Shown here piece by piece: positions 8,513-24,766 of a DNA stretch of 39,744 nucleotides. The stretch's first letter is position 1; each line of letters opens with the position of its first letter. A model generated the notes under the pieces. It had not been told where the DNA came from, ran no database searches, and worked only from the letters and a program-made list of their open reading frames with translations. The DNA is from Curvivirga aplysinae (GTDB lineage: Bacteria; Pseudomonadota; Alphaproteobacteria; UBA8366; Aestuariispiraceae), in assembly GCF_009711445.1 (NCBI RefSeq), contig NZ_SMMC01000198.1, positions 1 to 39,744 of the forward strand, written 5' to 3'. Made by a program: the position numbers and the translations under genes.

Positions 8513-8516
8513 ATTG

Positions 8517-9471: not shown

Positions 9472-9497
9472 TTTTGATTTTTATAAATCAGTTATGG

Positions 9498-9596: not shown

Positions 9597-11516
9597 ATGC
9601 CTCAATTAAGTATTGAAGATATAAGGTGGGCAGAAAGTGCCTTGCAGTATTTGGCTGGTCAAGATTTGAATGCAGCCATGGAAAAAATTTCAGCTGCTCA
9701 AGTTGATCAAGAATTACAACCAATCAAGACGCATCTATTAGGGTTGCTGTCTATTCGGATGAATAACTTTTCTGAAGCTTTAAAGCTTTTTAAGTTGGCT
9801 TCCGATATATCTCCTATGGGTAAAATACATTTCGAGGCTGCTAGCTATTGTGCCACTCGACTTGGAATGCTTAGTGACAGTGTTTTTTATCTTAAAATGT
9901 CTGCTACATGCCCAGAGCCTACAGAATTTGAGGTTAAGCTTTTACCTGAATGGCTAGGTAGCGTTGAAGATCAGCTTGCAAATATCCAAGAGCGCCCTTT
10001 CTTGCAGAAGGCAAAGGAAACCTTGGCTAATGAGCAATATACTGAGACTTTGCAGCACCTTCAGCAAGCTCTGAATGCAGATCCCTTTCATGTAGAGAGT
10101 TGGTTGGTTATTCAGAAAGTGATGAAAAAACTGGATCGTAAATATGATTCTGTTCATGCCGTAAAAGCAGCTTTGGATTCAGGTGATGTAAATGCAATAG
10201 CAATAGCGGAAGCAGCTTTGGTGGCTAGTCATTTGTCACTACCTGAAGCTAATGAATTATTTCAGAAAGCTCATCAACAAAATACCGAACATGGTAATGC
10301 TTATGATGTTGAGCTATATGAGCTTGAGGCCTTGGAAGCTCAGGTGAATTTAGATGATTTATTTATCGAAAAAAAACGAGCTTATTTAGAGAAGCTGAAC
10401 GGTGTTTCTGCGTCAGATAAGATAGTGGCTTTAGAAAATCAGGTTAATTTAGGGGTTTTCTCTGGGCGATTGAATGCTGGTCAGGGAGCTGATTTTTTCG
10501 TTAACTTTATATTGGATGTCCTTTCATTTGGGCGTGCTCCGTGGTTGGCGGTGAAGGTGTTTTCAAATTCCGACTATGATGACTTTCAGAGTAATCGATT
10601 GAAGACTAACGCAAGAGATTTTAGACATGTGGATATGATCGATCCATTGACATTGTCCCGTATTATCAGAAATGAAGCTATTCATATCTTGTGGGATTTT
10701 GATGGATTGCGTTCGACAGGTGGTCCGCAAATACATCAAGAGATCATGATACCATATCGCTTGACCCTTGATGAAACATCTATATCGCCTCTTATGACAT
10801 CCCTCGTTGGGGAAGATAAGTTTGATCTTGATTTTTTACCAATTGCTTTGCCAAGAAAATTTGACCCTTCTGAATTTGAGATTACCAAAGATAAAGACCG
10901 CAAGGTTATTCTATTATCAGTAAGTCCATCTGATCTAACTGATGAAATTTTGGATATGTTTTATCGAATTAAGACGGAACTACCATTTTTTGATTTGCTA
11001 TTGGATACAAGAAAGCTAGGCGGTGTTTCCTTTGTAGATAGGATCGAGGCAAAGTTTATAGAGAAGGGCCTTGGAAATTTTATACAATTTCATGAGGTTT
11101 GTGATCGAATGGAGGCATATAATGAGGCATTATATTCCAAAGCTGATTATCTTCTTACCAACTCAAGAAGTGATGGTTTGCAAGCTGTATATAACGGTTT
11201 TCTTCACAACTGTAATATCTTGGTATTAGAAAGCGGGATTAATACTTTGGTGAAATCTAGTTTAGTTCAGATAGGGCTTGAAAACAGATATTTCGATCAA
11301 GTTTCAGACCTAGAAAATATTATAAGAGATGAGCTTGAATCAGATGCAAGTTTTGTAAAGACGTTAACAATCCAGCATGAAAAACTGATAGATTTTGTTT
11401 CTGCAGAAAGGCGTTTTGAAAATGTACAGGCCTTTATTGGTTTTATCGAAACGAGTTTGTCCGAAATTTATAATAAAGATGATGCGTCTGGCATTTTGAT
11501 GAAAGATGGTAAGTGA
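9597..11516 (+). CDS. TPR protein with glycosyltransferase-like C-terminus
   Basis: The 639-residue product has helical, TPR-like repeats over about residues 1-250 (for example FSEALKLFKLASDISPMGKIHFEAASYCA and a second set around LQHLQQALNADPFHVESWLVI). A C-terminal part (about 300-620) resembles a GT-B Rossmann fold, with strand-helix alternation and a stretch SKADYLLTNSRSDGLQAVYNG. TPR plus GT is the layout of OGT-like flagellin glycosyltransferases, but no family-defining motif is certain. The start is taken at ATG 9597, which has GGAAG 10 bases upstream, rather than the in-frame TTG at 9576. Its stop overlaps the start of the Maf gene. It follows the flagellins, which suggests a filament-modifying role. 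Confidence 0.6.
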   Translation: MPQLSIEDIRWAESALQYLAGQDLNAAMEKISAAQVDQELQPIKTHLLGLLSIRMNNFSEALKLFKLASDISPMGKIHFEAASYCATRLGMLSDSVFYLKMSATCPEPTEFEVKLLPEWLGSVEDQLANIQERPFLQKAKETLANEQYTETLQHLQQALNADPFHVESWLVIQKVMKKLDRKYDSVHAVKAALDSGDVNAIAIAEAALVASHLSLPEANELFQKAHQQNTEHGNAYDVELYELEALEAQVNLDDLFIEKKRAYLEKLNGVSASDKIVALENQVNLGVFSGRLNAGQGADFFVNFILDVLSFGRAPWLAVKVFSNSDYDDFQSNRLKTNARDFRHVDMIDPLTLSRIIRNEAIHILWDFDGLRSTGGPQIHQEIMIPYRLTLDETSISPLMTSLVGEDKFDLDFLPIALPRKFDPSEFEITKDKDRKVILLSVSPSDLTDEILDMFYRIKTELPFFDLLLDTRKLGGVSFVDRIEAKFIEKGLGNFIQFHEVCDRMEAYNEALYSKADYLLTNSRSDGLQAVYNGFLHNCNILVLESGINTLVKSSLVQIGLENRYFDQVSDLENIIRDELESDASFVKTLTIQHEKLIDFVSAERRFENVQAFIGFIETSLSEIYNKDDASGILMKDGK

Positions 11517-13501
11517 TGGATCGGTCAGAATTATTCAAGAAAAACTTAGAAGCACTAAGAGGGCATCAGCAAATTCTAGCATATCAGTTAGAAAATCTCT
11601 CTTATGTGCATACAAAACTTGTTGAGACCGAATTTGATGGCGTGGCTGGGTATAACTTAGATTTGGGAAATACGCTGTTTTATGGTGAAAACCCTGAACT
11701 CTTAGCAAAGAAACAGCTGGAACAATACAAGAAAACACCTTCTCGTATTCATGGAGGGTGGTTGTTTAATCCTGTGTCTCCTTGGACAATTACAGAGCTG
11801 CTTTATGAAAAGGCATGGCTTTGGGCTGGAGAAAATAATTTTCAAGATGGTGGTGAATATCGCGCGGGTGATGGTGGGATCGGTATAATCCTTGGATTAG
11901 GTCTTGGTTATCATATTAATTTTTTAATTGATGAACTAGATTGTAGAATATTTTATATCGCCGAGGAACATATTGAATTTTTATATCACTTTATGCATTT
12001 GCATGATTTAAGTGAGATTTATGAAAAGCTTGAAAAGCGAGGCGGAGAAATTCGTTTTGTTCTGGATGATGATCCGGATACAATTGTATCAAGAATAAAT
12101 GTAACAATCCGTCAACATGATTTTGGTATTGTTGATGGGGCCTTCTTCTTTACGCATTATCATTCGAAGAATATGCTTGATATTCGTACGAAGTATTTGG
12201 AAGCCATTCCACTTATGAACATGAATCCTGGCTTCTTTGATGACGAATGCGTTATGATGCGAAATTCATTTGCAAATCTTACAAACAAAAAAGCAAGTCT
12301 CTATAAAATCGGTCCAAGGTTAAAGAAAAACACGCCTGCCGTAATTGTTGGGTCTGGCCCTTCACTTGATTCTTGTATTGAGCTAATAAAAGAAAATAGA
12401 GAAGAGATTTTTGTGATTTCTTGTGGGACTGCTTTGGGTGCTTTACTGCGTAATGGTATCCGGCCAGACTATCATGTGGAATTAGAAAATACGCCTGGCC
12501 CTCCTAAAATAGTCAAAGAGTTGAAAGATCAATTTGGATTAGATGATATTGATTTGATAGCACCGACTACAGTGAGACCAGAAATGGTAGAGCTTTTTGA
12601 TCGTTCGATTTTATTTTTCAGAGATTCTGTAACCTCTACCCATTTTTGGGGGGGGCAAGATATTGTCTCACTTGCTGCCCCTACTGTCAGTAATGCGGGG
12701 GCTCGAATAGCGGCGGGTTGGGGATTCGAAAATATATATCTTGTTGGCGTTGATTTGGGCGCACGTGAGCAAGAAGCACATCATTCAAAAGATTCTATAT
12801 ATCTTGCAGATAAAGAGTTTTTAAAAAATAGCCCCGCACATGCAGCTGCTTCAAAATATAATAATGTACAAAGTGGTAATTTTGGCGGCACTATTTATAC
12901 GAATACAAGTTTTCATGCTTCCGCTGTTGCCATGGGGCATTTATTCGAACTATTTCCGACCTTAAAACTTATTAATCTTTCTGATGGAATTCGCATAAAA
13001 AGGGCTATTCCTTGTTTACCAGAAGTCGTGCGCTTAACAGGAAATAAGACGGAAGCCGAATATGAGAAAAAACTTATTTCAAGTGAATTTGAGAATACAC
13101 GTAATAGCTTTCAATTCTCAATAGAGGAATTAGAGAAGCTACGTGAAGAGATGTTAAGCGATTGTCATCAAATTCATGAAGTCTTTGTAAAACATCTTGA
13201 TGATAAACTTGATGTATATAACTTGTATCAAGATATCCGGAAATGCTTGTTTTACTTCGCCAACAACAAGTATGAACGCGTCCGGCATTCTATGTATTAT
13301 GGTACATCAATGTTGATTTTTCAGTTAGCATTTATAGTCATCCGACGGTTGAAACATCGTCCAGAATTGATGACTTCCTATATGGAATTTTATGAACGCG
13401 AAGCTCTGAAAAGTTTGGATGAAGTTACGGAACAAACAAAAGAGTTGATGGATGAATTAGTGAGAAGCGGTGAAGTATATCTTCAACAAAAGGAACGCTA
13501 A
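11516..13501 (+). CDS. Maf-type flagellin glycosyltransferase (DUF115 / MptE-like)
   Basis: The 661-residue product carries the motility-associated-factor core: TPAVIVGSGPSLDSCIELI (about 277-295) followed by FVISCGTALGALLRNGIRPDYHVELE. This is the DUF115/6-hydroxymethylpterin pyrophosphokinase MptE-like domain. Maf proteins transfer nonulosonic acids such as pseudaminic or legionaminic acid from CMP carriers to flagellin before export. N- and C-terminal regions are helical and family-typical. ATG 11516 overlaps the upstream TGA (TGATG), so translation is coupled; GTG 11513 is an alternative. The neuB gene follows 2 bases after the stop, tying this protein to ulosonic acid use. Confidence 0.88.
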   Translation: MDRSELFKKNLEALRGHQQILAYQLENLSYVHTKLVETEFDGVAGYNLDLGNTLFYGENPELLAKKQLEQYKKTPSRIHGGWLFNPVSPWTITELLYEKAWLWAGENNFQDGGEYRAGDGGIGIILGLGLGYHINFLIDELDCRIFYIAEEHIEFLYHFMHLHDLSEIYEKLEKRGGEIRFVLDDDPDTIVSRINVTIRQHDFGIVDGAFFFTHYHSKNMLDIRTKYLEAIPLMNMNPGFFDDECVMMRNSFANLTNKKASLYKIGPRLKKNTPAVIVGSGPSLDSCIELIKENREEIFVISCGTALGALLRNGIRPDYHVELENTPGPPKIVKELKDQFGLDDIDLIAPTTVRPEMVELFDRSILFFRDSVTSTHFWGGQDIVSLAAPTVSNAGARIAAGWGFENIYLVGVDLGAREQEAHHSKDSIYLADKEFLKNSPAHAAASKYNNVQSGNFGGTIYTNTSFHASAVAMGHLFELFPTLKLINLSDGIRIKRAIPCLPEVVRLTGNKTEAEYEKKLISSEFENTRNSFQFSIEELEKLREEMLSDCHQIHEVFVKHLDDKLDVYNLYQDIRKCLFYFANNKYERVRHSMYYGTSMLIFQLAFIVIRRLKHRPELMTSYMEFYEREALKSLDEVTEQTKELMDELVRSGEVYLQQKER

Positions 13502-13503
13502 AG

Positions 13504-14520
13504 ATGAATTTATTCGGTAAGGATTTAACTGAGGAAATTGTAATTATTGCTGAAATTGGAGTAAACCACGAAGGTGATCTCGATAAAGCAAAGGAAATGA
13601 TTTCGTTAGCAGCGGAAGCAGGAGCTGATGCTGTTAAGTTTCAAAGTTACACTCCGGAGAGATTCATTTCTTCTGATGATGCTGAACGGTTAGAAAGGGT
13701 AAGACGTTTTGGCTTATCTGAATCAGACCATCATGAATTATCTAATTTTGCGAAGAACAAGCATATTCACTTTTTCTCCTCTGCTATTAGTGAAGATTGG
13801 GTCCCTCTGCTTGCTGAATTAGGTGAAGCGATTAAGATTGCGAGTGCTGATATAACTTTTGAACCGGTTATCAGGGCTGCTGCGAGTTCTGGTAAAATCG
13901 TTATCCTATCAACAGGTGGATCAACGATAGACGAGGTAGATACAGCAGTTGGCTGGGTGAGGGAGGAAGTTGGTCAGGATTTACTTTCTGAGCGTCTTGT
14001 AATTCTGCATTGTATTTCATCCTATCCAACACCTATGGAAGAAGCGAATTTGCTATCAATTCCTTATTTGCAAGAACGATACCCTGATGTTGTTGTAGGC
14101 TATTCCAACCATGCCAAAGAGCGTGAGGTAAATGTAAGTGCTGTGGCTCTTGGGGCACGGGTTTTGGAGGTGCATTTTACCTATCGTAAAGAAGATCAAA
14201 GCTTTCATGATCATGCATTATCAGCCGATCCCGAAGATATGGCATATTACGCGCAAATGTTACCAAAAATTGCTCAAATGAGGGGGCAATTTGGTAAGCA
14301 GCCTCAGGCATGTGAGCGGGAAATTGTACCGATTATACGTAAGGGACTGATCGCAGCAACTGACTTGCAAATGGGGCATATCTTAAATGACGCGGATATT
14401 CATTTTGCGCGTCCATCAACCGGTTTTCCTGCATCAGCCAGATCACATGTGATTGGTTGTCAGTTGAACGTAGATGTAAAAGCGGGGCAATCGCTGCAAC
14501 CTGAGATGCTGAAAGGATAA
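13504..14520 (+). CDS. neuB: NeuB-type nonulosonic acid synthase
   Basis: This enzyme condenses phosphoenolpyruvate with a six-carbon amino sugar to give a nine-carbon sialic-acid-like sugar (Neu5Ac, legionaminic or pseudaminic type). The 338-residue product has the NeuB barrel motifs IIAEIGVNHEGDLDKAKEM (about 13-31), DAVKFQSYTPERF, and IKIASADITFEPVI. The HYRLK-like region with C-terminal SAF/antifreeze-like domain is at about 280-338 (IRKGLIAATDLQMGHIL). Length matches the family. Whether the substrate is a ManNAc, Leg or Pse precursor cannot be told from motifs alone. It is tightly packed between the Maf gene and asnB. Confidence 0.9.
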   Translation: MNLFGKDLTEEIVIIAEIGVNHEGDLDKAKEMISLAAEAGADAVKFQSYTPERFISSDDAERLERVRRFGLSESDHHELSNFAKNKHIHFFSSAISEDWVPLLAELGEAIKIASADITFEPVIRAAASSGKIVILSTGGSTIDEVDTAVGWVREEVGQDLLSERLVILHCISSYPTPMEEANLLSIPYLQERYPDVVVGYSNHAKEREVNVSAVALGARVLEVHFTYRKEDQSFHDHALSADPEDMAYYAQMLPKIAQMRGQFGKQPQACEREIVPIIRKGLIAATDLQMGHILNDADIHFARPSTGFPASARSHVIGCQLNVDVKAGQSLQPEMLKG

Positions 14521-14523
14521 TTT

Positions 14524-16359
14524 ATGTGTGGGATTGCGGGGGGATTTGGACCAAAATCTATCACACCTGATCGGCTTGCTTCTTGCCATAAACTTATGGC
14601 GTTGAGAGGTCCAGACGGCAGCGGGCATTGGGCTTGTGAAACCCCGGCAGGAAACCATCTGAATTTCCTTCATTCACGACTTTCAATTGTAGATTTAGCA
14701 GAACGTTCCAATCAACCATTTGTTAAAAATCAACTGACTTTGGTTTTTAATGGAGAGATTTATAACCATATAGAATTAAGAAAAGAACTAGAGACGCTTG
14801 GGCATGTGTTTCACACCACAGGCGACACGGAAGTTGTTCTTGAGGCATATCGGCAATGGGGCACCGACTTCGTAACTCATATGGAAGGCATGTGGGCGAT
14901 TGCGCTTTATGATAGTCGCCAAGATCAGTTGATTCTTACTCGTGATCGTTTCGGCGAGAAACCACTTTATTTGTGGTGGGTGGATAATTGTCTTTATTTT
15001 GGTTCAGAAGTTCGATTTTTGATGGGGCTATCTGGGGTAAAAGCAGATGTAAACCAAGAACATCTAAGACGGTTTCTAGTAAATGGCTATAAATCACTTT
15101 TCCCGTCCGAGGACGATTACTTCTATGGGATTAAAGCATTTCCTGCTGGACATGTTGCGGTTGTCAAAACACCGTCTATGCCCATTAGCAAGCCTTTTTG
15201 GTCTGTGAGTTATAATCCTATCCAAATGACACAAGATGAGGCATTAGAAGGAACATATGACAAAATACGTCATGCGATTGAATTGAGATTAAGGGCTGAT
15301 GTCCCTATTGCTTTACGTTTAAGTGGGGGAATTGATTCGAATGTCGCTCTTGGCATGGCAGTACAGGAATTACAGCAAGATATTACGACTTTTTCCGTAG
15401 TAGAAGATGATCCGCGTTACGACGAAACCGCAAGTATTCTTGAAGCGATCAAGTATCATGGATGTTCTCATGAGATCATAAAAATACCTAAAGATAACTT
15501 TTTAGATCGTCTTTACGGATTAATTGATTATTTTGGTAAACCTATGATGACGATATCTTATTATCTTCATGCATTGGTGAGCGAGCATATTCATAATGCA
15601 GGGTTCAAAGTATCGCTTGGAGGTACAGGGGCTGACGAAATTTTTAGTGGCTATTATGACCATTATCTTTTCTGGCTGGCGGAAATGCAGAATCGTGCGG
15701 ATTTTTCCGATCTGGTCGGAGGTTGGCGAGATAGCTACGGCAAATTTGTTAGAAACCCCTTTTTGCAAGATCCCGAAGCATTTATTAAGCAGCCCAACCG
15801 ACGAGATCATATTTTTTTAGGTGCAGAGAAATTCTCTTCTTTTTTGAAGGAACCTTTTGAAGAAAGGCATCATGAAAAGACATTTTGTGAGCCGATTTTA
15901 CGTAACAGAATGTTGAACGAATTGCTGCATGAAACAGTACCAGTCATGCTTCATGAAGATGATTTATCTGCCATGGCTTATTCAGTAGAAAATCGCGCCG
16001 TTTATCTGGATAGCCAATTGGTGGAATTTGTTTCCACAGTGCCGAGCGAGCATCTATTTGGTAACAGTTTACCGAAATATTTACTGAGACGTGCGGGAAA
16101 GGGCATTGCGCCTGAAAGCATTTTAACGAACCCACGTAAGCAGGGAATTAATGCGCCTGTTACCAGTTTCGTTGATTTTACTGATGATGAGGTGCAAGAG
16201 GCAATATTGGACGATAGTTTAGTCTATGATATTATTCAAAAAGATAAGGTTGAGAAGCTTTTGAATTCCACCTTGGAACTGAATAGCGAAAGTAAGTTTT
16301 TATTCTCAATTATTTCTACAAAGTTGTTTTTGGACAGTCATTTGGCGTTTCAGCCATAG
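14524..16359 (+). CDS. asnB: Glutamine-hydrolysing asparagine synthetase-like amidotransferase
   Basis: The 611-residue AsnB-family protein begins MCGIAGGF, so Cys2 is the class II glutaminase nucleophile after Met removal. The glutaminase domain (about 1-200) has SRLSIVDLAERSNQPF and FNGEIYNH. The synthetase domain (about 235-590) has the PP-loop RLSGGIDSNVALG and the downstream GTGADEIFSGYYDHY. AsnB makes Asn from Asp, but copies in surface-sugar loci are often thought to amidate sugars or uronic acids. Its position directly before a second PP-loop amidotransferase suggests a sugar substrate here; this is inference. It starts 3 bases after neuB. Confidence 0.88.
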   Translation: MCGIAGGFGPKSITPDRLASCHKLMALRGPDGSGHWACETPAGNHLNFLHSRLSIVDLAERSNQPFVKNQLTLVFNGEIYNHIELRKELETLGHVFHTTGDTEVVLEAYRQWGTDFVTHMEGMWAIALYDSRQDQLILTRDRFGEKPLYLWWVDNCLYFGSEVRFLMGLSGVKADVNQEHLRRFLVNGYKSLFPSEDDYFYGIKAFPAGHVAVVKTPSMPISKPFWSVSYNPIQMTQDEALEGTYDKIRHAIELRLRADVPIALRLSGGIDSNVALGMAVQELQQDITTFSVVEDDPRYDETASILEAIKYHGCSHEIIKIPKDNFLDRLYGLIDYFGKPMMTISYYLHALVSEHIHNAGFKVSLGGTGADEIFSGYYDHYLFWLAEMQNRADFSDLVGGWRDSYGKFVRNPFLQDPEAFIKQPNRRDHIFLGAEKFSSFLKEPFEERHHEKTFCEPILRNRMLNELLHETVPVMLHEDDLSAMAYSVENRAVYLDSQLVEFVSTVPSEHLFGNSLPKYLLRRAGKGIAPESILTNPRKQGINAPVTSFVDFTDDEVQEAILDDSLVYDIIQKDKVEKLLNSTLELNSESKFLFSIISTKLFLDSHLAFQP

Positions 16360-16371
16360 AAGGATGGGATT

Positions 16372-17493
16372 ATGGAATATTGTGTTGAATGTATTTTGCC
16401 TGATACCCGTCCCGGTATTGAGTTGGATGAAAACGGAGTTTGTACGGCTTGTCATGGGCATCGCGATAAAGAAAGTAAGATTGATTGGCAGGATCGTGCA
16501 AAGAGTTTTGAGGGCTTGGTCGCCGATGCAAAGTCCCGATCTACGGGCTATGATTGTATTGTACCAGTTAGCGGCGGCAAGGATAGTTGGTATCAGATAA
16601 TCAAAGCACAGAGTTATGGTCTCAATGTGTTGGCGGTCACCTGGCGTACACCAGCCAGAACAGAAATTGGCCAAGAAAATGTGGAGCGCATGATTGAGAA
16701 GCTTGGCGTGGATCACATTGACTATACGATTAATCCGGATGTTGAACGTCGGTTTATGAAGGCTGCATATGAAAAACTAGGTGCGACCGGGTTGCCTATG
16801 CATATGGCTCTTTTTTCCATTCCTATTCGATTGGCTGTGCAGCTCAGAATTCCCTTGATCGTCTGGGGAGAGAATGCGCAGCTAGAATATGGTGGAAATG
16901 AGTGGGAGAGATTATCTACCAGCTTAGATGCCAGTTGGTTGTCTAAGCATGGATGTTTGCAATCGACACAAGCATCGGATTGGATTGGGCAAGACGGCTT
17001 AACAGAAAAAGAGTTATCTGCCTATACATTTCCCATTGATCCAGATTTTGAGGTGAGATCGGTATTTTTAGGCTCTTTCTTCAAGTGGAATAGTTTTGAG
17101 AATACTGAAATAGCTCAAGCACATGGGTTTAAATATGGAAAAGAGGATTTAAAAACGGGAACTTGGGATTTTGCCGATATAGATTGTAAATTTATTTCCC
17201 TGCATCATTTTTTAAAATGGTATAAGTTTGGAATGACAAGGGCCTTTGATAATCTGTCTGTGCAAATTCGATATGGTATGAGCACGCGAGATGAAGCCAT
17301 AGAAGCTGTTAGAAAGATGGGATTGCAACGACCGGATGCGGATATAGAGGCTTTTTGTGAGTTTCAGAAGCGCCCTGTAAACTGGTTTATGGAAGTCGCA
17401 GAAAGCTTCCGCAATAAGGATATCTGGAAACAGGAAAAGGGTCGCTGGATTTTGCCGAATTTTCTGATACAGGAATGGGATTGGGAACAATGA
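16372..17493 (+). CDS. N-acetyl sugar amidotransferase (PseA/WbpG/LegA-type)
   Basis: The 373-residue product begins with two CxxC pairs (Cys4/Cys7 and Cys24/Cys27) that look like a zinc site, then the PP-loop VPVSGGKDSWYQ (Ser67-Ser72). It contains LIVWGENAQLEYGG at about 163-176. This is the pattern of the N-acetyl sugar amidotransferase family (PseA, WbpG). These enzymes convert an acetamido group of nonulosonic or uronic sugars to acetamidino using ATP and ammonia from a glutaminase partner. No separate HisH-like glutaminase is seen; AsnB next door may supply nitrogen. Its stop overlaps the next start as ATGA. Confidence 0.88.
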   Translation: MEYCVECILPDTRPGIELDENGVCTACHGHRDKESKIDWQDRAKSFEGLVADAKSRSTGYDCIVPVSGGKDSWYQIIKAQSYGLNVLAVTWRTPARTEIGQENVERMIEKLGVDHIDYTINPDVERRFMKAAYEKLGATGLPMHMALFSIPIRLAVQLRIPLIVWGENAQLEYGGNEWERLSTSLDASWLSKHGCLQSTQASDWIGQDGLTEKELSAYTFPIDPDFEVRSVFLGSFFKWNSFENTEIAQAHGFKYGKEDLKTGTWDFADIDCKFISLHHFLKWYKFGMTRAFDNLSVQIRYGMSTRDEAIEAVRKMGLQRPDADIEAFCEFQKRPVNWFMEVAESFRNKDIWKQEKGRWILPNFLIQEWDWEQ

Positions 17494-18218
17494 CATCAAC
17501 TATGAAAATCGCACTGCTGACATCTGACATGCCTTTTTTGAAGGCTTTTGCAAAAGCGTTATTAGAACATTATCCCAATATTCAAATATTTGAAGAAAAA
17601 CGAGAAATTTCAGCCAGTTTTGAGACACGTCACGAAATTGATGATTTTCGGGATAAGTATGAAATTGATACCTATTTTGATGGTACTGAACCAAGGTTTG
17701 CTGATCTGGCACCAACGCATACATTTCGTGATGTGAACTCTGAAGAATGCGTTAAAGCGATCAAGGAATTTGAACCTGATGCACTTATTGCTTTTGGCAC
17801 AGGCGTAATTCGCGAGGAGTTGCTGAAAATTAAACCAGACCGTTTCGTTACATTACACGGGGCTGACCCCGAACAATATCGTGGATTGGATACCCATCTT
17901 TGGGCGATTTATCATGGTGACTTTGATGGATTGATGGCCTCCCTTCTTCGGGCACATGTTATACCGGATCAAGGTGGGGTAGTGATGAAAATGCCAATCC
18001 CAATAAAAGCTGGCATGAAGTTTTTTGAATTACGAAAAGCTTATTGTGATATTTGCATTAGCATGGTGCTTTCTGCGCTAAATATGCTGGAAAGCTTTGA
18101 TCAATTTATTAGCCAACCGCAACGATATATTGGTCGACATTATTCCTTTATGCCTGCGGTTTTGAAGGATCGCTGTATCCAAAAATTTTATTCACATGTC
18201 TTAACTATAAAAAAATGA
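17490..18218 (+). CDS. Formyltransferase-family protein, catalytic Asn replaced
   Basis: The 242-residue product matches the PurN/Fmt formyltransferase fold: FEPDALIAFGTGVI, then FVTLHGADPEQYRGLDTHLW, AIYHGD and IPDQGGVVMKM. These align with the family's Asn-x-His active site, the GLxTHxxA helix and the catalytic Asp before GG. The His and Asp are kept, but the catalytic Asn position is Thr (TLH instead of NIH). Sugar N-formyltransferases occur in surface-glycan loci and use formyl-tetrahydrofolate. The change may mean a different acyl donor, altered chemistry or loss of activity. The start 17490 shares ATGA with the amidotransferase stop. Confidence 0.72.
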   Translation: MTSTMKIALLTSDMPFLKAFAKALLEHYPNIQIFEEKREISASFETRHEIDDFRDKYEIDTYFDGTEPRFADLAPTHTFRDVNSEECVKAIKEFEPDALIAFGTGVIREELLKIKPDRFVTLHGADPEQYRGLDTHLWAIYHGDFDGLMASLLRAHVIPDQGGVVMKMPIPIKAGMKFFELRKAYCDICISMVLSALNMLESFDQFISQPQRYIGRHYSFMPAVLKDRCIQKFYSHVLTIKK

Positions 18219-18320
18219 TTGCGTTATCGAAATTACTATAACTTTGCTACCTTCAAATGTAGTTATTTGCTTCGACAACGAGATAAGCTTGGTTTCGATA
18301 AGTGAAATATGTAGGTTTAT
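18219..18320 (+). other. 102-base gap inside the plus-strand sugar operon
   Basis: This is the only sizeable gap in an otherwise overlapping gene string. No terminator or clear promoter was recognised. The methyltransferase start that follows has a modest TAGG ribosome site. It may mark a module boundary. Confidence 0.4.
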
Positions 18321-19145
18321 ATGAAAGATACTCAACAACCATGTGCCATTTGCAATCAGATTGAATGGAAATTCCATGCATTCTTTACTCAGAAACCAGA
18401 TATTGAGGCGGATTACGGGTTTCAACGGTATCAACGAAGTTTATTTGAATGCCAAACCTGTGGACATTTTGAAAACCGTTATGGCGGGGATATAGATTTA
18501 TCTTCTCTTTATGAGGGAGGCTATTGGGATAGCACCTATGCTGATCAGGTGAAGTCTACCTTTGACCGCATCATGTCTTTACCTGCGGATCAATCTGACA
18601 ATCGTGGACGGGTTGATTTTATTAATAGGTTCTGGGAACAAAACGCGTTGTTGAAAAAAACGGTTTTGGATATTGGTTCGGGTTTAGCAGTTTTTCCTGC
18701 TGTGATGAAAGAAACAGGTTGGGAAGTAACAGCGTTAGATCCAGATGCAAAGGCAGCAGAGCATGCCCGAAACAACGCTAATGTTAAGTCTGTTGCAGCT
18801 GATTATCTAAAAGATAATGTGGATGGAAAATATACCCTCGTAACACTTAATAAAGTGTTAGAGCATGTGCCGGATATGACTGGTATGTTGAACAAGGTGA
18901 AACACAACTTATCAAAAGATGGCCTTGTTTATGTTGAATTACCGGACGGAGAAACAGCTATTCATGATCCAGATAATGCAACGCGTGAGGAATTCCTGGT
19001 AGAACATTATTGTGCATTTTCTTTTGCCTCCTATAGCTTACTTGCAAGTAAAGCTGGTTTCAATGTTTTGACATTGGAACGCCTGATTGAGCCGAGCGGA
19101 AAGTATACTTTACGCGGTTTCTTGAAAGTCAAAGATAATGCATGA
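18321..19145 (+). CDS. SAM-dependent methyltransferase with N-terminal zinc-type Cys pairs
   Basis: The 274-residue product has two CxxC pairs (Cys8/Cys11 and Cys44/Cys47), likely a small zinc knuckle. A class I Rossmann methyltransferase domain follows. Motif I is VLDIGSGLAVFP (from about 115), the acidic end of strand 2 is VTALDPDAKAAEHA, and motif IV-like LNKVLEHVPDM follows. This layout is seen in sugar C- or O-methyltransferases of antibiotic and lipopolysaccharide loci. The substrate is not determined; the context suggests the flagellin sugar. Its end overlaps the GNAT gene by 8 bases. Confidence 0.78.
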   Translation: MKDTQQPCAICNQIEWKFHAFFTQKPDIEADYGFQRYQRSLFECQTCGHFENRYGGDIDLSSLYEGGYWDSTYADQVKSTFDRIMSLPADQSDNRGRVDFINRFWEQNALLKKTVLDIGSGLAVFPAVMKETGWEVTALDPDAKAAEHARNNANVKSVAADYLKDNVDGKYTLVTLNKVLEHVPDMTGMLNKVKHNLSKDGLVYVELPDGETAIHDPDNATREEFLVEHYCAFSFASYSLLASKAGFNVLTLERLIEPSGKYTLRGFLKVKDNA

Positions 19146-19833
19146 GAATAGATATTCAGAACTGCCATTTGAAACACAGGTATTTGGGCAACCTGTATGG
19201 CGTTTGGATGATATCTCATACGCATATGATGTCGTTCGTTTAGCCGAAGAGCAGAATGTTGGATTGATCAGCTATCGCGAAAAAGGTTCTGAAAATGACT
19301 TTTCATTACTAGATCAGTCCGGTTTTTATCCCGTTGAAATATTAACCACACTGGAAAGAGCTGTTACCCCAGAGGTTGAATGGCCAATTCACATCCGTAT
19401 TGCTGATAAGGATGATGCAGCATGTGTCGCAGAGATTGCGCGTAACTGTTTTGAACATGATCGTTATCATGCTGATAAGGCGATAGATGATAAGATTGCG
19501 GACGAGATTAAAGCAGTTTGGATGTTTAATTCTGTCTCAGGACGAGCGGACGCTGTTTTCTTATATGAAAAAGATCAAGAAATTTTAGGCTTTAACGCAT
19601 GCATGCTTAGGGATGGAAATGCGGTGATTGATTTGATTGGTGTTAGGCGGGATGCACAAGGTGGCGGTATAGGGCGTGATTTGGTTCGAGCAATGGATAG
19701 TTATTATTTTAATAAAGCTAAAAACTTGCGTCTAGGCACGCAGGAAATGAATAAAAAATCTCAAAATTTTTATCGAACACTTGGGTTTAAAGACGTTGCA
19801 AGATATCAAACCTGGCATTGGACAAGCTTCTAA
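19138..19833 (+). CDS. GNAT-family N-acetyltransferase
   Basis: The 231-residue product has a C-terminal GNAT domain (about 85-225) with the acetyl-CoA loop RRDAQGGGIGRDLVRAM (motif A) and motif B region NKKSQNFYRTLGFK. The N-terminal part, starting ENRYSELPFETQVFGQPVWRLD, resembles the extra beta domain of sugar-nucleotide N-acetyltransferases of the WecD/dTDP-fucosamine type. It most likely acetylates an amino sugar made by the DegT aminotransferase of the facing operon. The start lies inside the methyltransferase gene (coupled). Its stop overlaps the last gene of the opposite operon by 4 bases. Confidence 0.8.
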   Translation: MHENRYSELPFETQVFGQPVWRLDDISYAYDVVRLAEEQNVGLISYREKGSENDFSLLDQSGFYPVEILTTLERAVTPEVEWPIHIRIADKDDAACVAEIARNCFEHDRYHADKAIDDKIADEIKAVWMFNSVSGRADAVFLYEKDQEILGFNACMLRDGNAVIDLIGVRRDAQGGGIGRDLVRAMDSYYFNKAKNLRLGTQEMNKKSQNFYRTLGFKDVARYQTWHWTSF

Positions 19834-20351
19834 TCAATCTTGAAAAGTAGTGGGTCTTTTCCAAGTGGAGGGAGCGCCGCATCAGTGCCACGTAATCGCT
19901 CATAAATACTGCACCCAAAGATATAGTTTACATCGCCATATTTATCACACATTGGAAGATAAATACGTTCAGTATATTTAAATTCATCGTCGGTTGTGAC
20001 ACTATAATATGCAGCGGCCGGTGTCTCTCGAATGAATTTCCAACGTGTCATAACACTTTCAACAGATTCCGAATCCATAAAGTCGCTTATCAAAGGGCAA
20101 TTTTTTGTTTCTTGCCATGCGTCTTTTATATTTTGTCCAGCCAAAGTCTGCCGATAAGTATTCAGTTCGGTGACATATTCATAGATCCAGACATTTGAGA
20201 TGTATTTCTTAGGAATTGAAAGTGGGTCAATGTCATTACGTGCGGGAATTTTTTTGTCTGGTGCAAAATTAAGCCATGCTTGATAAATCTCATTGGACAT
20301 TCTCGTCGGGAAGGTTGCTGGCCCTTCTTTTAAGTCTTTGATACTATACAA
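19830..20351 (-). CDS. PAS_5-like domain protein
   Basis: The 173-residue product resembles the alphaproteobacterial PAS_5 (PF07310) family: LNFAPDKKIPARNDIDPLSIPKKY at about 27-50, then a strand-rich ligand-type core (VWIYEYVTELNTYRQTLAGQNI) and a C-terminal region with ERIYLPMCDKYGDVNYIFGC. Proteins of this family are small single-domain sensors of unknown ligand. No output domain is present. A ribosome site AGAGG precedes the ATG. It is the last gene of the minus-strand sugar operon, an unexpected place for a sensor. Confidence 0.65.
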   Translation of the reverse strand: MYSIKDLKEGPATFPTRMSNEIYQAWLNFAPDKKIPARNDIDPLSIPKKYISNVWIYEYVTELNTYRQTLAGQNIKDAWQETKNCPLISDFMDSESVESVMTRWKFIRETPAAAYYSVTTDDEFKYTERIYLPMCDKYGDVNYIFGCSIYERLRGTDAALPPLGKDPLLFKID

Positions 20352-20373
20352 ATGATGCCTCTTTTGAACCTAA

Positions 20374-20733
20374 TTATGCTATATTATTTTTTAGTTGAAT
20401 GTCATCTTGGTCAAGATAGGCAATAATTTCCATATCTTGAGAAGCTAGGTAAGTGGTAAATTCATCTTGTTTTTCTGTTTCATAGGCTAAAACATAAAAC
20501 AATCCATCTGGGTTACGTGAAAGCACTGTTCTATAACCTGCTTTTTTCATCCTACCATTGGTTGAGCCTGTAAGGTAATATCCCCAATCCTTCGCTGTGA
20601 TATCAAGTTCTTTACCTGAGGATGATTGAAATGTGATTAATTCATCGCTGTCTAAATTTATATCTGCAACATGAGAGAGTTCTACATTTTTGACTGTGAA
20701 TTTTCTGGTAGGAGATTTAGCTTTATAGTCCAT
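20374..20733 (-). CDS. Conserved-looking 119-residue protein of unknown function
   Basis: No family name is recognised. The protein is charged, soluble, with no signal peptide or membrane segment. It shows alternating short strands (KFTVKNVELSHVADINLDSDE, then ITFQSSSGKELDITAKDWG) and an aromatic/Gly patch (WGYYLTGSTNGRMKK, about 50-64). It looks like an all-beta plus helix domain. It is packed 3 bases after the SpsF-like gene and 22 bases before the PAS_5-like gene, so it is a real member of the operon. A role in sugar assembly or filament modification is only a guess. Confidence 0.7.
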   Translation of the reverse strand: MDYKAKSPTRKFTVKNVELSHVADINLDSDELITFQSSSGKELDITAKDWGYYLTGSTNGRMKKAGYRTVLSRNPDGLFYVLAYETEKQDEFTTYLASQDMEIIAYLDQDDIQLKNNIA

Positions 20734-20736
20734 ATA

Positions 20737-21468
20737 TCATACCTTACTTGAGGATAGGTGGTTTTGCTGCCAGGTTTCAGCCAAAGGTATAATATCCTTT
20801 AACTCCGCATGGATTGGGTCATCCAACTGATTGACCATCCAGATTGCTTTATCAAGATCTTGCGGCGTATCAACGGTAATGGATTGAATGTCAGTTGAAT
20901 AAGATTCTGTTGCACGAACTGGTAATATCTCAAATTGATCAGAATGTTTATATGCGTAAGCAGTGACGTGTTCGAGATAATATGGGTCATCCGTTAAGTT
21001 ACATATCTTTTGCATCGCTGTGCGTGTAATAATTTCAACACTACATCCATAAGGAAAATCATGCGATACAAAAACATTACTTGTGAGATCACTTTCACTA
21101 TTTAGAAACTCTGTAGCAACCAAATCAACAATTTTCGGATCCATCAATGGGCTATCTGCGCAAATCCTAATAAACCAGTCCAAATTATTCGTTTTCATTG
21201 CTTCCAGACAACGCCCAGCGACATTATTCACATCCCCACGGAATACGGGAATTTTATTTTCTTGTGCAAAGTCGACAAGAGGTTGATCAAGATCACGGTC
21301 TGTCGTCGTAACGATCATATCTGATATTATCTGACAACATTCAAGTCGCTTAACTAGCAAACTTAGAACTGTAAACTCTGTATTAAGTTGCTTGAGTTGT
21401 TTGTTCGGCAAACGAGTGGAATCCAGTCGTGCCAGCAAGAGCATAGCCCCTTTGCCACGTTTTGACAT
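20737..21468 (-). CDS. SpsF/NeuA-like nucleotidyltransferase
   Basis: The 243-residue product has the cytidylyltransferase opening MLLLARLDSTRLPNKQL (about 9-25), matching the ARxxSTRLPxK pattern of SpsF proteins. It then has MIVTTTDRDLDQPLVDFA and a metal-site motif WFIRICADSPLMDPKIV (about 98-114). SpsF-like proteins are taken to activate sugars as CMP (or other NDP) derivatives. In this island it is the only candidate for making the CMP-sugar used by the Maf protein, since no classical NeuA (LIPARGGSK) is present. It overlaps nothing but lies 11 bases from the SDR gene. Confidence 0.8.
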   Translation of the reverse strand: MSKRGKGAMLLLARLDSTRLPNKQLKQLNTEFTVLSLLVKRLECCQIISDMIVTTTDRDLDQPLVDFAQENKIPVFRGDVNNVAGRCLEAMKTNNLDWFIRICADSPLMDPKIVDLVATEFLNSESDLTSNVFVSHDFPYGCSVEIITRTAMQKICNLTDDPYYLEHVTAYAYKHSDQFEILPVRATESYSTDIQSITVDTPQDLDKAIWMVNQLDDPIHAELKDIIPLAETWQQNHLSSSKV

Positions 21469-21479
21469 TTTAGTAAGCC

Positions 21480-22562
21480 TTAGTAATCTTCGTTATTCTT
21501 GCGTTTGGCTTTTTCCCATGCATCTACATACCATTGGCAATAATCTTTATAGCCAGTTTCTAAGGTCCATTCAGGCTCAAAACCAAGAATGGTTTTTGCA
21601 CGATCTGTAGAGAGAGTTCCTCGTATTGGTTTATCAACTGCACGTGGTCGTTCTTCGAGAATGGCATCTGGAACAACGGACTTAACCACACCGGCAAGAT
21701 CAGCAATTGTACGGGCATTCCCAAAAGTTAAGTTGAAGGTATTACTGTCTTCTGGGGATTTGTGAAGTGCTAATGCACGTACCTGTCCCTGCACCAAATC
21801 TTTAATATAGGTGAAGTCTAGCTTTCCATCACCACCGCCTTCAAGAAGAAGTGGCTTTCCCGTAAGCGCATTTTCAATAAACATTTGGCTTACACGGCGT
21901 GAGATGCAACGCTCTCCATATAATGCGCTTGGTCGAATAACCGTTGTGCCTAAACCATATTGAGTTCGATATGTCCGAATGAGGCGCTCCCCCATAAATT
22001 TTGCATTGGCATAAATGCCTTCAGGGCGCGGGAAGGTAGTTTCATCCACACTATCGCCTTCAAAATCACCGTATACAGTACTTGAAGACATAAACATAAC
22101 TTGATTGATTTTATCTGTTCTTGGACGAATTAATTCCAGAGTGTTTCGTAAGGTGATCAGTTGTAAGTCAAAACAAAGCCCAGGTTCTGCTTTTGCATCA
22201 ACAGCGCTGGCAATAGCTGACAGATGAACGACTTTGGTTGGTTCGAATTCTTCAAAGATGCGTCCAAGATCAGCTAAATGTCTTGCATCACAATTTTTCA
22301 AGGCTACACCAGATTTTCGAAGGAGATGGAAACGTTCTAACAAGAAACCCTGATACGCCATGCGCTGAACTTTGTCTTTCTCAGCTTCAAATGTATTTTC
22401 AATTAAGCTATTGATCATCAAGTTATCAGCAATCATGACTTTAGAACCCATGTTTGCGAGTTCAAGTGCAAGGTTATGGCCGATAAATCCTGCACCACCT
22501 ATCAAGAGGATGCGCTGATCTTTCAATAATGGACGTAGTGTTTCATAGGGGATATGTGACAT
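21480..22562 (-). CDS. Extended SDR: NAD-dependent sugar epimerase/dehydratase
   Basis: The 360-residue product has the Rossmann motif LLIGGAGFIGHNLA (glycines at 22, 23, 25, 28). The catalytic triad pieces are SSSTVYG (Ser160/161) and YANAK (Tyr184, Lys188). This is the extended SDR pattern of UDP-sugar epimerases and 4,6-dehydratases. The gene context suggests it makes the keto-sugar that the DegT enzyme aminates, or an epimer of it. Epimerase versus dehydratase cannot be settled from these motifs. The usual TDEVYG-type Asp/Glu pair of 4,6-dehydratases is not seen: the position reads SSTVYG, which favours an epimerase or reductase. Confidence 0.85.
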   Translation of the reverse strand: MSHIPYETLRPLLKDQRILLIGGAGFIGHNLALELANMGSKVMIADNLMINSLIENTFEAEKDKVQRMAYQGFLLERFHLLRKSGVALKNCDARHLADLGRIFEEFEPTKVVHLSAIASAVDAKAEPGLCFDLQLITLRNTLELIRPRTDKINQVMFMSSSTVYGDFEGDSVDETTFPRPEGIYANAKFMGERLIRTYRTQYGLGTTVIRPSALYGERCISRRVSQMFIENALTGKPLLLEGGGDGKLDFTYIKDLVQGQVRALALHKSPEDSNTFNLTFGNARTIADLAGVVKSVVPDAILEERPRAVDKPIRGTLSTDRAKTILGFEPEWTLETGYKDYCQWYVDAWEKAKRKNNEDY

Positions 22563-22585
22563 GATGTACCTCGAATTCTTCTTGG

Positions 22586-23734
22586 TTATGCCTTTGAAAC
22601 CACAAGGGCTTGTTTTAATGCTTCTGCAATTCGCTCAGGACCATCTTCAGGCAAATGAGGGCCAACTGGCAAGGATAAAGTTTGTTCAGAAATCCATTCA
22701 GCATTTGGGAATTGTCCCTGTTTATAGCCGTATTTTTCTGCATAATATTCAAACATGGGAACTGGACCAGGATAATGTACAGAAAAACCAATACCATTTT
22801 CCTTAAGGCTATCCATTACTTTTGCACGATCAATAGATCCATCTTTGGGCAAGATTGTATTTAAGCAGTAATGGCTGTTAGGACCGTAGCCTTCCGGAGG
22901 TGGGAGGAGAGAAATTTCTTCCACCTCATTGAGCAACTCAACCAAGCGACGGTAATTCTCAGCACGAATTTTCTGAAAACCGTCCAAACGTTTTAATTGC
23001 TCAATTCCCACGGCTGCCTCAACATCACTCATGCGATAATTGAAACCCAATTGATTGACATCGTAAAGGCCTGGTTTGGCCCGTTCGCCAAGTGCTTTGT
23101 TATATCCAAAGGCACGACGTTTACGGAGTTGATCCGCAAGGTCATCATCATTTGTGGTAACCATGCCCCCTTCGATTGAGGTCATATGTTTCACAGGATA
23201 AAAGGAAAATGCACCAGCCAAACCATGATTACCCACTTTTTTACCGTCAAATTCTGCATCAAGAGAGACGGCGCAATCTTCAAGGATAAAGGCGCCATGA
23301 CGTTCGGCTGTTGTTTTAATACGGCGCATATTACAGGGAAGGCCAAGATAGTGAACTGGCATGATGACAGATAGATTTTCTTCAATTCTATCCAGCGCGC
23401 CCGGGCACATATTTCCGGTATTTGGGCTAATGTCGACAAAGACAGGTTTAGCACCTTGTAATTCCACGACATGGGCCGTTGCAGTATGGGTCATTGCTGG
23501 CAATGCAACCGTATCGCCTTTGCCAATGTTCTTCACAAAGAGGACCATATGAAGACCTGCGGTACAGGAGGCAACGGATACAGCATGTTTTGTTCCTACT
23601 CTCTCAGCAAATGCCTCTTCGAATTCAGGTGTTTTTTTTCCATGTACCAGCATACCGCTATCTAGTACTTCTAGCACAGCATGTTTTTCTGCATCACTAA
23701 TTTGTGGTTTACCGAATGGTATTGGATCAGCCAT
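22586..23734 (-). CDS. DegT/DnrJ/EryC1 aminotransferase
   Basis: The 382-residue PLP enzyme transfers an amino group from glutamate to a keto-sugar. It shows the family's opening (IPFGKPQISDAEKHAVLEVLDSG), the PLP phosphate/cofactor region with Asp153 in FILEDCAVSLDAEFDG, and the Schiff-base Lys182 in FSFYPVKHMTSIEGG. It also has the typical C-terminal HYPGPVP segment. Related enzymes are PseC, LegC and PerA/WecE types. It lies between the Gfo/Idh and SDR genes. This enzyme and the GNAT of the facing operon make a natural aminate-then-acetylate pair. Confidence 0.9.
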   Translation of the reverse strand: MADPIPFGKPQISDAEKHAVLEVLDSGMLVHGKKTPEFEEAFAERVGTKHAVSVASCTAGLHMVLFVKNIGKGDTVALPAMTHTATAHVVELQGAKPVFVDISPNTGNMCPGALDRIEENLSVIMPVHYLGLPCNMRRIKTTAERHGAFILEDCAVSLDAEFDGKKVGNHGLAGAFSFYPVKHMTSIEGGMVTTNDDDLADQLRKRRAFGYNKALGERAKPGLYDVNQLGFNYRMSDVEAAVGIEQLKRLDGFQKIRAENYRRLVELLNEVEEISLLPPPEGYGPNSHYCLNTILPKDGSIDRAKVMDSLKENGIGFSVHYPGPVPMFEYYAEKYGYKQGQFPNAEWISEQTLSLPVGPHLPEDGPERIAEALKQALVVSKA

Positions 23735-23746
23735 GTCCGTTTTCCT

Positions 23747-24766
23747 TTATCCCGCTTGAAAGCTATAGCTTACTGGCACTGTTTTTTTCTCCTTAACAGA
23801 TTCCCAGCAAGCGAAACAGATATCCATTACAGAATATACATCTTTTGCACCAACATTTGGTTCTTCGTTTTTACGAATGGCTTCAATAAAGTCTGGAAGT
23901 AAGTCACCTTTAGCCATAGCAGGGTAAGGGGTGGTGAAAGGGGATTCGTCTTTTTCTTCATCGCTATTAAAGAGGCGAGCATGCGGTTTTCCGTTTTCGA
24001 AGCTTAGTTTTGATCCATAAATATTTAAGGAGTGAAACTTATGGCGCTGGGGCATAAACATTGTAGTCGTTTTTGCTAAAACCTCGTCATCAAACCGTAA
24101 AAGATTCGTGATAATGTCAGGATATTTAAATTGGCTGGCATTGGTTGCTTTCTTAACACCCATGCCAGTAACTTCTATGACGTTTTTACCAATTATCCAG
24201 CGCATTAAATCGATAAGATGAATGCCTCCACCATAAGTGATGCAGTAAAAATCCATCGCCCCGCGCCATCCTTCGGTGATCTTCCAAAGGATTTGATGAA
24301 TATAATCACCTTCCATGTAATAAATATCGCCAAATTCGTCGTTTTGAACCATCTGACGAATTTCTTTGAAGCGCGGGCTTTCACGTAAGATTAGATTGGA
24401 AGAGATTTTTTTACCACTATCCTGTTGCGCGCGAATAACACGTTCCATATCAGGTTTATTTAACGCGATTGGTTTTTCAACGAATACATGCTTGCCGTTT
24501 TCAAATGCAGCAACCGCCTGATCGGCATGAAAATTGTCATAGCTACATATAGATATAACATCGATTTCCGGGTCTTCGATGATTTTCATTGGATCGGTAT
24601 GGCAATCAGAAACATGCCGTCTTAAGCCAACTTCATTTGCATGTCTATGGTTGATATCGCAAATAGAGGAAACCTCGACGTTAGGAATTGCATTATAGCT
24701 TTTTACATGCTGTTCCCCAACGCCTAGTCCTATAACACCAACCTTAAGAGGTTTGCTCTCAGTCAT
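23747..24766 (-). CDS. Gfo/Idh/MocA-family sugar oxidoreductase
   Basis: The 339-residue product has the N-terminal NAD(P) motif VGVIGLGVGEQH (Gly at 10, 13, 15, 17), the EKPIA signature (Glu97-Lys98-Pro99) and the C-terminal dimer domain with GGGIHLIDLMRW (His in the catalytic area). This family oxidises or reduces hydroxyl/keto groups of sugars. Campylobacter PtmF, in legionaminic acid precursor synthesis, belongs to a related group. Its ATG overlaps the flgK stop (TAATG), so it is translated directly behind a flagellar structural gene. Confidence 0.88.
   Translation of the reverse strand: MTESKPLKVGVIGLGVGEQHVKSYNAIPNVEVSSICDINHRHANEVGLRRHVSDCHTDPMKIIEDPEIDVISICSYDNFHADQAVAAFENGKHVFVEKPIALNKPDMERVIRAQQDSGKKISSNLILRESPRFKEIRQMVQNDEFGDIYYMEGDYIHQILWKITEGWRGAMDFYCITYGGGIHLIDLMRWIIGKNVIEVTGMGVKKATNASQFKYPDIITNLLRFDDEVLAKTTTMFMPQRHKFHSLNIYGSKLSFENGKPHARLFNSDEEKDESPFTTPYPAMAKGDLLPDFIEAIRKNEEPNVGAKDVYSVMDICFACWESVKEKKTVPVSYSFQAG

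Follow-up and report, generated by a model that had tools for sequence, protein, structure and literature searches.

Likely division of a nonulosonic-acid-type sugar pathway between two flagellar anchors in Curvivirga aplysinae and related Aestuariispiraceae

Sugar genes inside flagellar loci, RpoN-dependent glycosylation genes and flagellin transferases with tetratricopeptide repeats (TPR) are already known, and the closest described systems are the following. Flagellin O-glycosylation in the alphaproteobacterium Caulobacter crescentus is carried out by the Flm/NeuB system, with a NeuB-type synthase and the transferase FlmG, which joins TPR to a GT-B domain; the organism uses a six-enzyme pseudaminic acid pathway, with flmAB and flmGH operons and neuB under CtrA (PMC7591256). 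In Plesiomonas shigelloides, legionaminic acid genes lie between two polar flagellar regions, with a glycosyltransferase gene beside flgL-flgK (PMC4481668). RpoN-dependent flagellin glycosylation genes of Helicobacter and Campylobacter are expressed with the middle, hook-class sigma-54 genes; in Caulobacter, FliX and FlbD gate sigma-54 once the early stages of flagellar assembly have passed (PMC3930126). Finally, the Campylobacter Ptm/Leg and Leptospira nonulosonic acid clusters contain a NeuB-type synthase, a DegT aminotransferase, and a cytidine monophosphate (CMP) transferase (PMC3438082). Here, we describe a sugar island in a 39,744-nt stretch of Curvivirga aplysinae DNA (NZ_SMMC01000198.1; hereafter, the window), which is an entire contig of a 3.56 Mb draft genome.

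Approximately 15 kb of sugar genes are situated between the second flagellin gene and flgK and form two convergent blocks, the coordinates of which agree with a first-pass annotation made from the sequence alone. The right block starts with an ATG at 9597 and reads rightward as far as 19833; the left block reads leftward from 24766 to 19830, and the stop codons of the two overlap. We consider it likely that the two blocks are halves of one CMP-activated nonulosonic-acid-type pathway, supplemented with flagellin glycosyltransferases and split into convergent operons with different flagellar anchors, and the split probably ties sugar production to flagellum building. In the titles and abstract openings of the open-licence PubMed Central literature, we found no description of one pathway divided into halves with different flagellar gene anchors.

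The right block consists, in order, of genes for a TPR-GT41 glycosyltransferase, Maf (maf), NeuB with a SAF domain (neuB), an asparagine-synthase-like protein (asnB), WbuX (wbuX), a formyltransferase-like protein (fmt), a methyltransferase (mtase), and a GNAT acetyltransferase (gnat). It begins 125 nt after flagellin 2, and its intergenic gaps range from -19 to 12 nt, except for 102 nt ahead of the methyltransferase gene. The left block contains, in order, a Gfo/Idh oxidoreductase (gfo), a DegT aminotransferase (degT), a short-chain dehydrogenase/reductase (SDR; sdr), a cytidylyltransferase, here named SpsF (spsF), a 119-aa protein (o119), and a PAS_5 protein. Seven of these genes, i.e., those for TPR-GT41, the asparagine-synthase-like protein, WbuX, the formyltransferase-like protein, the methyltransferase, the 119-aa protein, and PAS_5, are additions to the first-pass list. 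As in a flagellin glycosylation island, a NeuB-family synthase, an aminotransferase, and a CMP transferase lie next to flagellin and are accompanied by a Maf/FlmG-type transferase.

Judged from genes alone, the island resembles the Caulobacter system in its NeuB-type synthase and TPR transferase, and the window also contains the flaF, flbT, and fliX genes known from Caulobacter. Its enzymes differ from those described for Caulobacter (PMC7591256) and include Gfo/Idh, an epimerase-like SDR, and amidotransferases; moreover, it encodes Maf as well and carries half of the pathway on a sigma-54 hook operon. The P. shigelloides region likewise has its sugar genes between flagellar regions, a glycosyltransferase gene beside flgL-flgK, a CMP transferase, and PtmF, an oxidoreductase of 326 aa; the legionaminic acid pathway of that organism includes PtmE, LegH, and LegI, in contrast to the window, and the excerpt describes no split into convergent halves at flgK and flagellin (PMC4481668). 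The Helicobacter and Campylobacter genes belong to another phylum, and the excerpted account reports no attachment of a half-pathway to flgK (PMC3930126). The Campylobacter and Leptospira clusters use the LegB 4,6-dehydratase and the LegG hydrolysing 2-epimerase (PMC3438082), neither of which was found in the window island.

Gene order was compared within the family Aestuariispiraceae (Rhodospirillales, where NCBI places Hwanghaeella and Pacificispira), of which 13 genomes were searched besides that of the window; genomes, loci, and contigs are numbered with the prefixes G, L, and C. The blocks face each other in nine genomes (window, G001, G003, G004, G006, G008, G009, G010, G011) and are apart in four (G002, G005, G007, G013), being located on different contigs or, in G002, at a distance of 88 kb. 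In the separated genomes, the right block remains flgL-flagellin-GT-maf-neuB-asnB-wbuX-fmt-mtase-gnat, and gfo is still found behind flgK in all four. The genes degT-sdr-spsF follow gfo in three of them, directly in G002 and past inserted genes in G005 and G013. These four genomes, with G007 as a partial exception, are the strongest support for two predicted separate flagellar anchors.

The left block appears to be the tail of the flgI-flgK operon. From flgI through the PAS_5 gene, the gaps range from -4 to 63 nt, and flgK and gfo overlap by 1 nt as TAATG in the window. The gfo gene immediately follows flgK, in the same orientation, in 13/13 family genomes that have it (the window and 12 relatives), at a gap of 1 to ~80 nt in the relatives if the start fitting the window protein is used; G002 and G007 offer a further in-frame start upstream of this one, from which gfo would overlap flgK. 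In the remaining family genome, G012, a contig end truncates flgK. Upstream of flgI, at 28949–28964 on the minus strand, lies a sigma-54 -24/-12 element, TGGCACG-N4-TCGCA, with one mismatch to the consensus. Consensus matching is weak on its own, as the window contains 59 matches with three or fewer mismatches vs. 56.5 expected by chance. The same site, TGGCACG-N4-TCGC(A/T), occurs near the flgI start in 13/13 family genomes; in a scan with a promoter matrix, the window stretch stopped short of it and G013 had another, higher-scoring match, and both were read separately. In several relatives the site is near or just past the extrapolated annotated flgI start, and hence this start is uncertain and the true one may be further downstream. 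The element recurs at the operon head, and the flgK junction is too short to accommodate both a separate promoter and a terminator, which is consistent with co-transcription of the left block from the sigma-54 promoter, although either could be situated within the flgK coding sequence. Weaker sigma-54-like sites before flgK itself were observed in G001, G006, and G008 (p 0.013–0.047). The matrix was trained on flgL and flgF promoters only, and all its p-values are uncorrected and apply to single scanning windows.

The first-pass annotation had placed a sigma-54 site at 28950–28964 and the left half behind flgK, and both proposals stand, the former as a consensus match; its description of this half as translationally coupled to flgK fits the TAATG overlap of the window, but not the relatives. 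The idea that the left block occurs exclusively downstream of flgK was rejected, as most relatives among the best 80 loci analysed below are situated elsewhere. Weaker Gfo/Idh relatives were also found outside the family in G019, G041, G043, and G050, and no flgK was detected in the stretches around those of G041, G043, and G050.

The right block follows flagellin in 14/14 family genomes including that of the window, G008 showing only a flagellin fragment at a contig end. In the window, a terminator-like hairpin with a T-run separates the two, and comparable hairpins within 35 nt of the flagellin stop were seen in 8 of 12 genomes (window, G002, G004, G005, G007, G009, G011, G013) in a search made without a shuffled control; in G006 and G012 the hairpins were only poor, and for G001 and G003 the search yielded no good one. 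Ten genomes, in which the start of the first right-block gene was placed roughly by tblastn, have no sigma-54-like site at p < 0.05 ahead of that gene. The right block therefore adjoins flagellin and, because of the hairpin, is not simply within its transcript: straight read-through from flagellin is weakened as a candidate, and the first-pass suggestion that this half is hitched to flagellin holds for position and not for co-transcription, with a 12-pair hairpin in between and no sigma-54-like site at the above p level ahead of the block in those 10 genomes. A sigma-54-like site with two mismatches is located at 8498–8513 on the plus strand, upstream of flagellin 2.

Two genes at the head of the right block encode candidate flagellin transferases. 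The family profile of the TPR-GT41 protein (A4) matches XcOGT and SPINDLY, and PF13844 (GT41) is matched by 9 of 12 members, whereas the window member alone gives only weak TPR. The profile thus has the N-terminal TPR and C-terminal GT-B/GT41 layout of an FlmG-type OGT, as judged from the XcOGT, SPINDLY, and GT41 matches. The neighbouring protein has the Maf N-terminal domain and the MptE-like core (PF20157 and PF01973). The two genes stand back to back (9597–13501), with a 4-nt overlap in the window, and are adjacent in all 12 family genomes in which the glycosyltransferase open reading frame (ORF) was read whole; either enzyme could modify flagellin, or each might serve one of the flagellins.

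In six genomes, other genes are inserted between gfo and degT (G003, G005, G009, G010, G011, G013), each with opposite-strand ORFs of gene length, and in all six a sigma-54-like site is found at degT (p 0.0008–0.018). No strong degT site was found in the six genomes with degT directly after gfo (window, G001, G002, G004, G006, G008), G002 having a weak one (p 0.038). As a control, at most 53 other loci were scanned, a number that includes L102 and also counts loci skipped for having less than 100 nt upstream; scores above 8 bits were obtained only for L102 and L123. The L102 site has p 0.013, and this locus groups within the family in the SDR tree. The inserts of G003 and G010, which belong to two genera, include similar 213-aa proteins (by eye) encoded in inverted orientation; as a guess, these are perhaps cupins.

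Outside the family, the genes of both blocks are found in single operons. The related loci are the best 80 of at least 464 confirmed SDR relatives, many of which end at contig ends, and hence all neighbour counts are lower bounds. Locus L092 has ten genes on a single strand in the order neuB-asnB-wbuX-mtase-gnat-gfo-degT-sdr-spsF-o119, and inverting its gfo..o119 segment yields the window arrangement, except for the formyltransferase-like and PAS_5 genes. L063, L065, L090, and L105 share this order for eight of the ten genes, and further versions that are largely colinear, some of them short of the full ten, are found in L109, L112, L114, L115, L117, L119, L122, and L125, across several phyla. 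For L063 (49 kb), L105 (26 kb), and L090 (58 kb read out of 78 kb), the contig gave no match to the flagellar genes of the window; the flagellins of these three genomes are on other contigs. In the SDR tree, the starred family clade comprises 12 family rows and L102, while L105, with its SDR match in two pieces, is an outlier on a very long branch. The wbuX tree places the colinear loci among the family members, though not with strong support, and an approximately unbiased test does not reject monophyly of the family (p 0.29); for this reason, the suggestion that the colinear state is ancestral rests on its spread over phyla and not on the wbuX tree.

The first-pass annotation had named homologues mainly outside flagellar loci as an observation that would count against it, and beyond the family this is largely what we see. 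A flagellar gene is within the stretch in at least 11 of the best 80 loci, and 69 show none; flgK is nearby in at least 8, all from Aestuariispiraceae, and other flagellar genes in at least 3 (L070, L080, L091). Moreover, 8 of 28 genomes with the gene set, Pelagibacter records included, have no detectable flagellin, an absence of little weight as many are metagenome-assembled or single-cell genomes. The comparison of gene order in relatives that it proposed thus has a mixed outcome: the flagellar anchors are kept in Aestuariispiraceae, but elsewhere the pathway is mostly non-flagellar. In L070 and L091, from other alphaproteobacteria, a related set is located on one strand beside flagellin and flbT, which suggests repeated recruitment of the gene set to flagellar loci.

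The 119-aa protein provides a further link between the blocks. Its homologues were found in 29 of the best 80 loci, recurring beside wbuX and the methyltransferase gene, and occur in nonulosonic-type operons of several phyla. In L126 (a Pelagibacteraceae record), a fusion protein combines a member of this left-block family with a methyltransferase that shares 28% identity with the right-block enzyme of the window; in L122, the fusion partner is a more distant methyltransferase-like domain (17%). Together with the colinear operons, the L126 fusion supports the first-pass view of the halves as parts of one pathway. A structural model of the 119-aa protein built from 26 sequences has pLDDT 92, and a Foldseek search with it returned no PDB match at E ≤ 0.001.

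Table 1. Predicted genes and the terminator-like hairpin of the flagellin–flgI region of the window
Feature	Coordinates	Strand	Evidence
Flagellin 1, 300 aa	7476..8378	+	PF00669/PF00700 above cut-off
Flagellin 2, 302 aa, directly upstream of right block	8563..9471	+	flagellin domains
Intrinsic-terminator-like hairpin, 12 pairs and T-run, flagellin 2/right block junction	9497..9526	+	begins 25 nt past flagellin stop
TPR + GT41-type glycosyltransferase, 639 aa, FlmG-like architecture, opens right block	9597..11516	+	
Maf flagellin glycosyltransferase, 662 aa	11513..13501	+	PF20157 + PF01973
NeuB-family nonulosonic acid synthase, 338 aa, SAF domain	13504..14520	+	PF03102 + PF08666
Asparagine-synthase-like amidotransferase, 611 aa, N-terminal MCG	14524..16359	+	TIGR01536 above cut-off
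WbuX-type N-acetyl-sugar amidotransferase, 373 aa	16372..17493	+	TIGR03573 above cut-off; no Pfam match
Formyltransferase-like protein, 247 aa	17475..18218	+	PF00551 marginally above cut-off
S-adenosylmethionine (SAM) methyltransferase, 274 aa	18321..19145	+	PF13489
GNAT acetyltransferase, 231 aa, last right-block gene	19138..19833	+	PF00583; weak WecD-like
PAS_5 protein, last left-block gene	19830..20351	-	PF07310 marginally above cut-off
119-aa protein, undescribed family	20374..20733	-	no Pfam/NCBIfam match
Cytidylyltransferase, 243 aa	20737..21468	-	PF02348; PDB 6oew (cytidylyltransferase) as top structural match
Extended SDR, epimerase-like, 360 aa	21480..22562	-	PF01370
DegT-family sugar aminotransferase, 382 aa	22586..23734	-	PF01041
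Gfo/Idh/MocA oxidoreductase (gfo), 339 aa, first left-block gene	23747..24766	-	PF01408
flgK	24766..26811	-	TIGR02492 above cut-off
146-aa ORF between flgJ and flgK	26875..27315	-	no Pfam/NCBIfam match
flgJ, rod-binding domain alone	27312..27638	-	PF10135
flgI, first gene of operon ending with left block	27647..28873	-	PF02119, match begins at residue 64
fliX, divergent neighbour of flgI	29137..29589	+	PF10768

Elsewhere in the flagellar complement, the 146-aa ORF listed in Table 1 keeps its place between flgJ and flgK in 11 of 12 relatives and might, as a guess, be a divergent FlgN-like chaperone. Homologues of flagellin, flgD, flgE, flgK, and flgL form a second set in the window genome, on contig C123 (L158, L159), where no match to the sugar genes of the window was found at E ≤ 1e-4, and one further flagellin on contig C11 (L160).

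The enzyme set is similar to known nonulosonic acid routes in combining an aminotransferase, an acyltransferase, a synthase, and a cytidylyltransferase. The window NeuB scores below the NeuB and PseI equivalog cut-offs (205.8 of 340.25 bits for PseI), as does DegT against PseC (304.6 bits; cut-off, 423.5) and the SDR against LegB (51.9 bits; cut-off, 475). The Asp-Glu pair of RmlB is catalytic in dehydratases; at its positions, the SDR has Ser-Thr. By these measures the island SDR is not a LegB-type 4,6-dehydratase, a statement confined to the island, as the rest of the genome was not searched for a dehydratase. Likewise, no LegG/NeuC-type hydrolysing 2-epimerase (PF02350) was found in the island, while it occurs elsewhere in five of eight family genomes tested, and the PseG hydrolase is absent from the island and present elsewhere in four of eight, above the cut-off in two; in G009, PseG above the cut-off is encoded beside another NeuB. 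Seventeen genomes outside the family, each with a NeuB match, carry all or much of the set. Among these, PF02350 is above the cut-off in six, never on the contig of the best NeuB, and PseG in none, with weaker matches in six; weaker or partial PF02350 or PseG matches off the best-NeuB contig were found in 7 of the 17 (G060, G061, G063, G071, G078, G079, G080). The family searches thus revealed no hydrolase in the island, hydrolases of other folds not having been sought, and since hydrolases lie elsewhere in some genomes, a hydrolase-free route is a possibility and not a result. A canonical legionaminic or pseudaminic acid pathway was rejected given the missing dehydratase and hydrolase and the scores below the PseI and PseC cut-offs. 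WbuX and the methyltransferase resemble PtmG and PtmH of Campylobacter, and by this analogy the sugar may carry an N-methylated acetamidino group. Contig C64 of the window genome contains a separate cluster of nonulosonic type (~34000–60000; L161, L162), which comprises NeuB, Epimerase_2, and a WbuX-like gene.

Based on this anatomy, we propose that the sigma-54 promoter before flgI would read flgI-flgJ, the 146-aa ORF, and flgK plus the left block, so that the precursor enzymes would be switched on with the middle (hook) class, while the right block, past the terminator, would be expressed by read-through or from its own promoter. The product would be an N-acylated, probably amidinated and methylated sugar, put on flagellin by the TPR-GT41 transferase and/or Maf. 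The ancestral state may have been one colinear operon for a general surface-glycan pathway, of which one segment would have been inverted in the family and captured by the flagellar locus. A more elaborate version would make the split an AND gate over assembly stages, with precursor enzymes coming with the sigma-54 hook operon, the synthase and transferases with the flagellin locus, and active sugar appearing as filament growth begins; it would also include a non-canonical route lacking a 4,6-dehydratase and a nucleotide-sugar hydrolase, with Gfo/Idh and the epimerase-like SDR instead, and a 119-aa family acting as the partner of the methyltransferase. We regard this combination, taken as a whole, as doubtful.

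A number of observations weigh against the proposal of one pathway with two flagellar anchors. One weak terminator-like site at 24835–24823 (minus strand, 5 pairs) is located within the end of flgK, in a region where such sites occur at chance level (13 found vs. 15.6 expected). Given the hairpin after flagellin, the right block is less likely to be driven simply by flagellin expression, and between this hairpin and position 9597 the window has no promoter-like (sigma-70-like) site listed. The six genomes with degT sites stem from about two lineages, the site of G007 is weak (p 0.063), and the same scan gave scattered matches at p < 0.05 elsewhere, i.e., at maf in G005, G011, and G013, gfo and spsF in G010, asnB in G009, gnat in G013, dksA in G002, and fliX in G005. 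A plainer account would be an ordinary flagellin glycosylation island kept by inertia, with the split and the flgK junction devoid of regulatory meaning. It is favoured by the known examples of sugar genes between flagellar regions, such as the legionaminic acid genes of P. shigelloides (PMC4481668), by the 1-nt flgK/gfo overlap, which is not conserved in the family, and by G007, where gfo is alone at flgK and degT-sdr are located on another contig (L056). We nevertheless consider it unlikely, as inertia predicts neither that each block keeps its flagellar gene when the two are apart nor that a sigma-54-like site is present at degT after inserts.

It is more improbable that the blocks feed different sugars, with the left one making a separate amino sugar and the right one using precursors from elsewhere for a nonulosonic acid. 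In favour of such a division, the left block is kept where right-block genes are missing: the neuB orthologue in G003, G006, and G008 (best NeuB elsewhere, 37–38%) and, at the locus, asnB and wbuX in G001. These losses, together with that of the formyltransferase-like gene at the locus in G001, G004, and G006, also count against the main proposal. It also accords with the failure to find neuB on the contig stretches read for L063, L090, and L105, and with the other NeuB cluster on C64. On the other hand, single colinear operons in several phyla contain genes of both blocks, and the fusion of the 119-aa family with a methyltransferase joins them. Least probable of all, in our view, is a pathway serving surface polysaccharide that is in the flagellar locus by chance. 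The 69 loci without a flagellar gene and the eight genomes without detectable flagellin would fit it, but not the Maf and OGT-type TPR-GT41 genes heading the right block, nor the constant position of this block after flagellin in the family. One pathway with two flagellar anchors is thus the reading we prefer.

The locus amounts to a natural rearrangement experiment, in which the same pathway exists in three states: a single operon, two operons that face each other, and two operons far apart. In the facing and distant states, the two pieces keep different flagellar genes beside them, G007 being a partial exception, and the timing of glycan supply relative to filament assembly becomes testable in named strains of Aestuariispira, Pacificispira, and Hwanghaeella, which are harmless marine bacteria. 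The gene set, present in several phyla and belonging to neither of the two textbook nonulosonic acid routes, may point to a new sugar and may also reveal the role of the undescribed 119-aa protein family.

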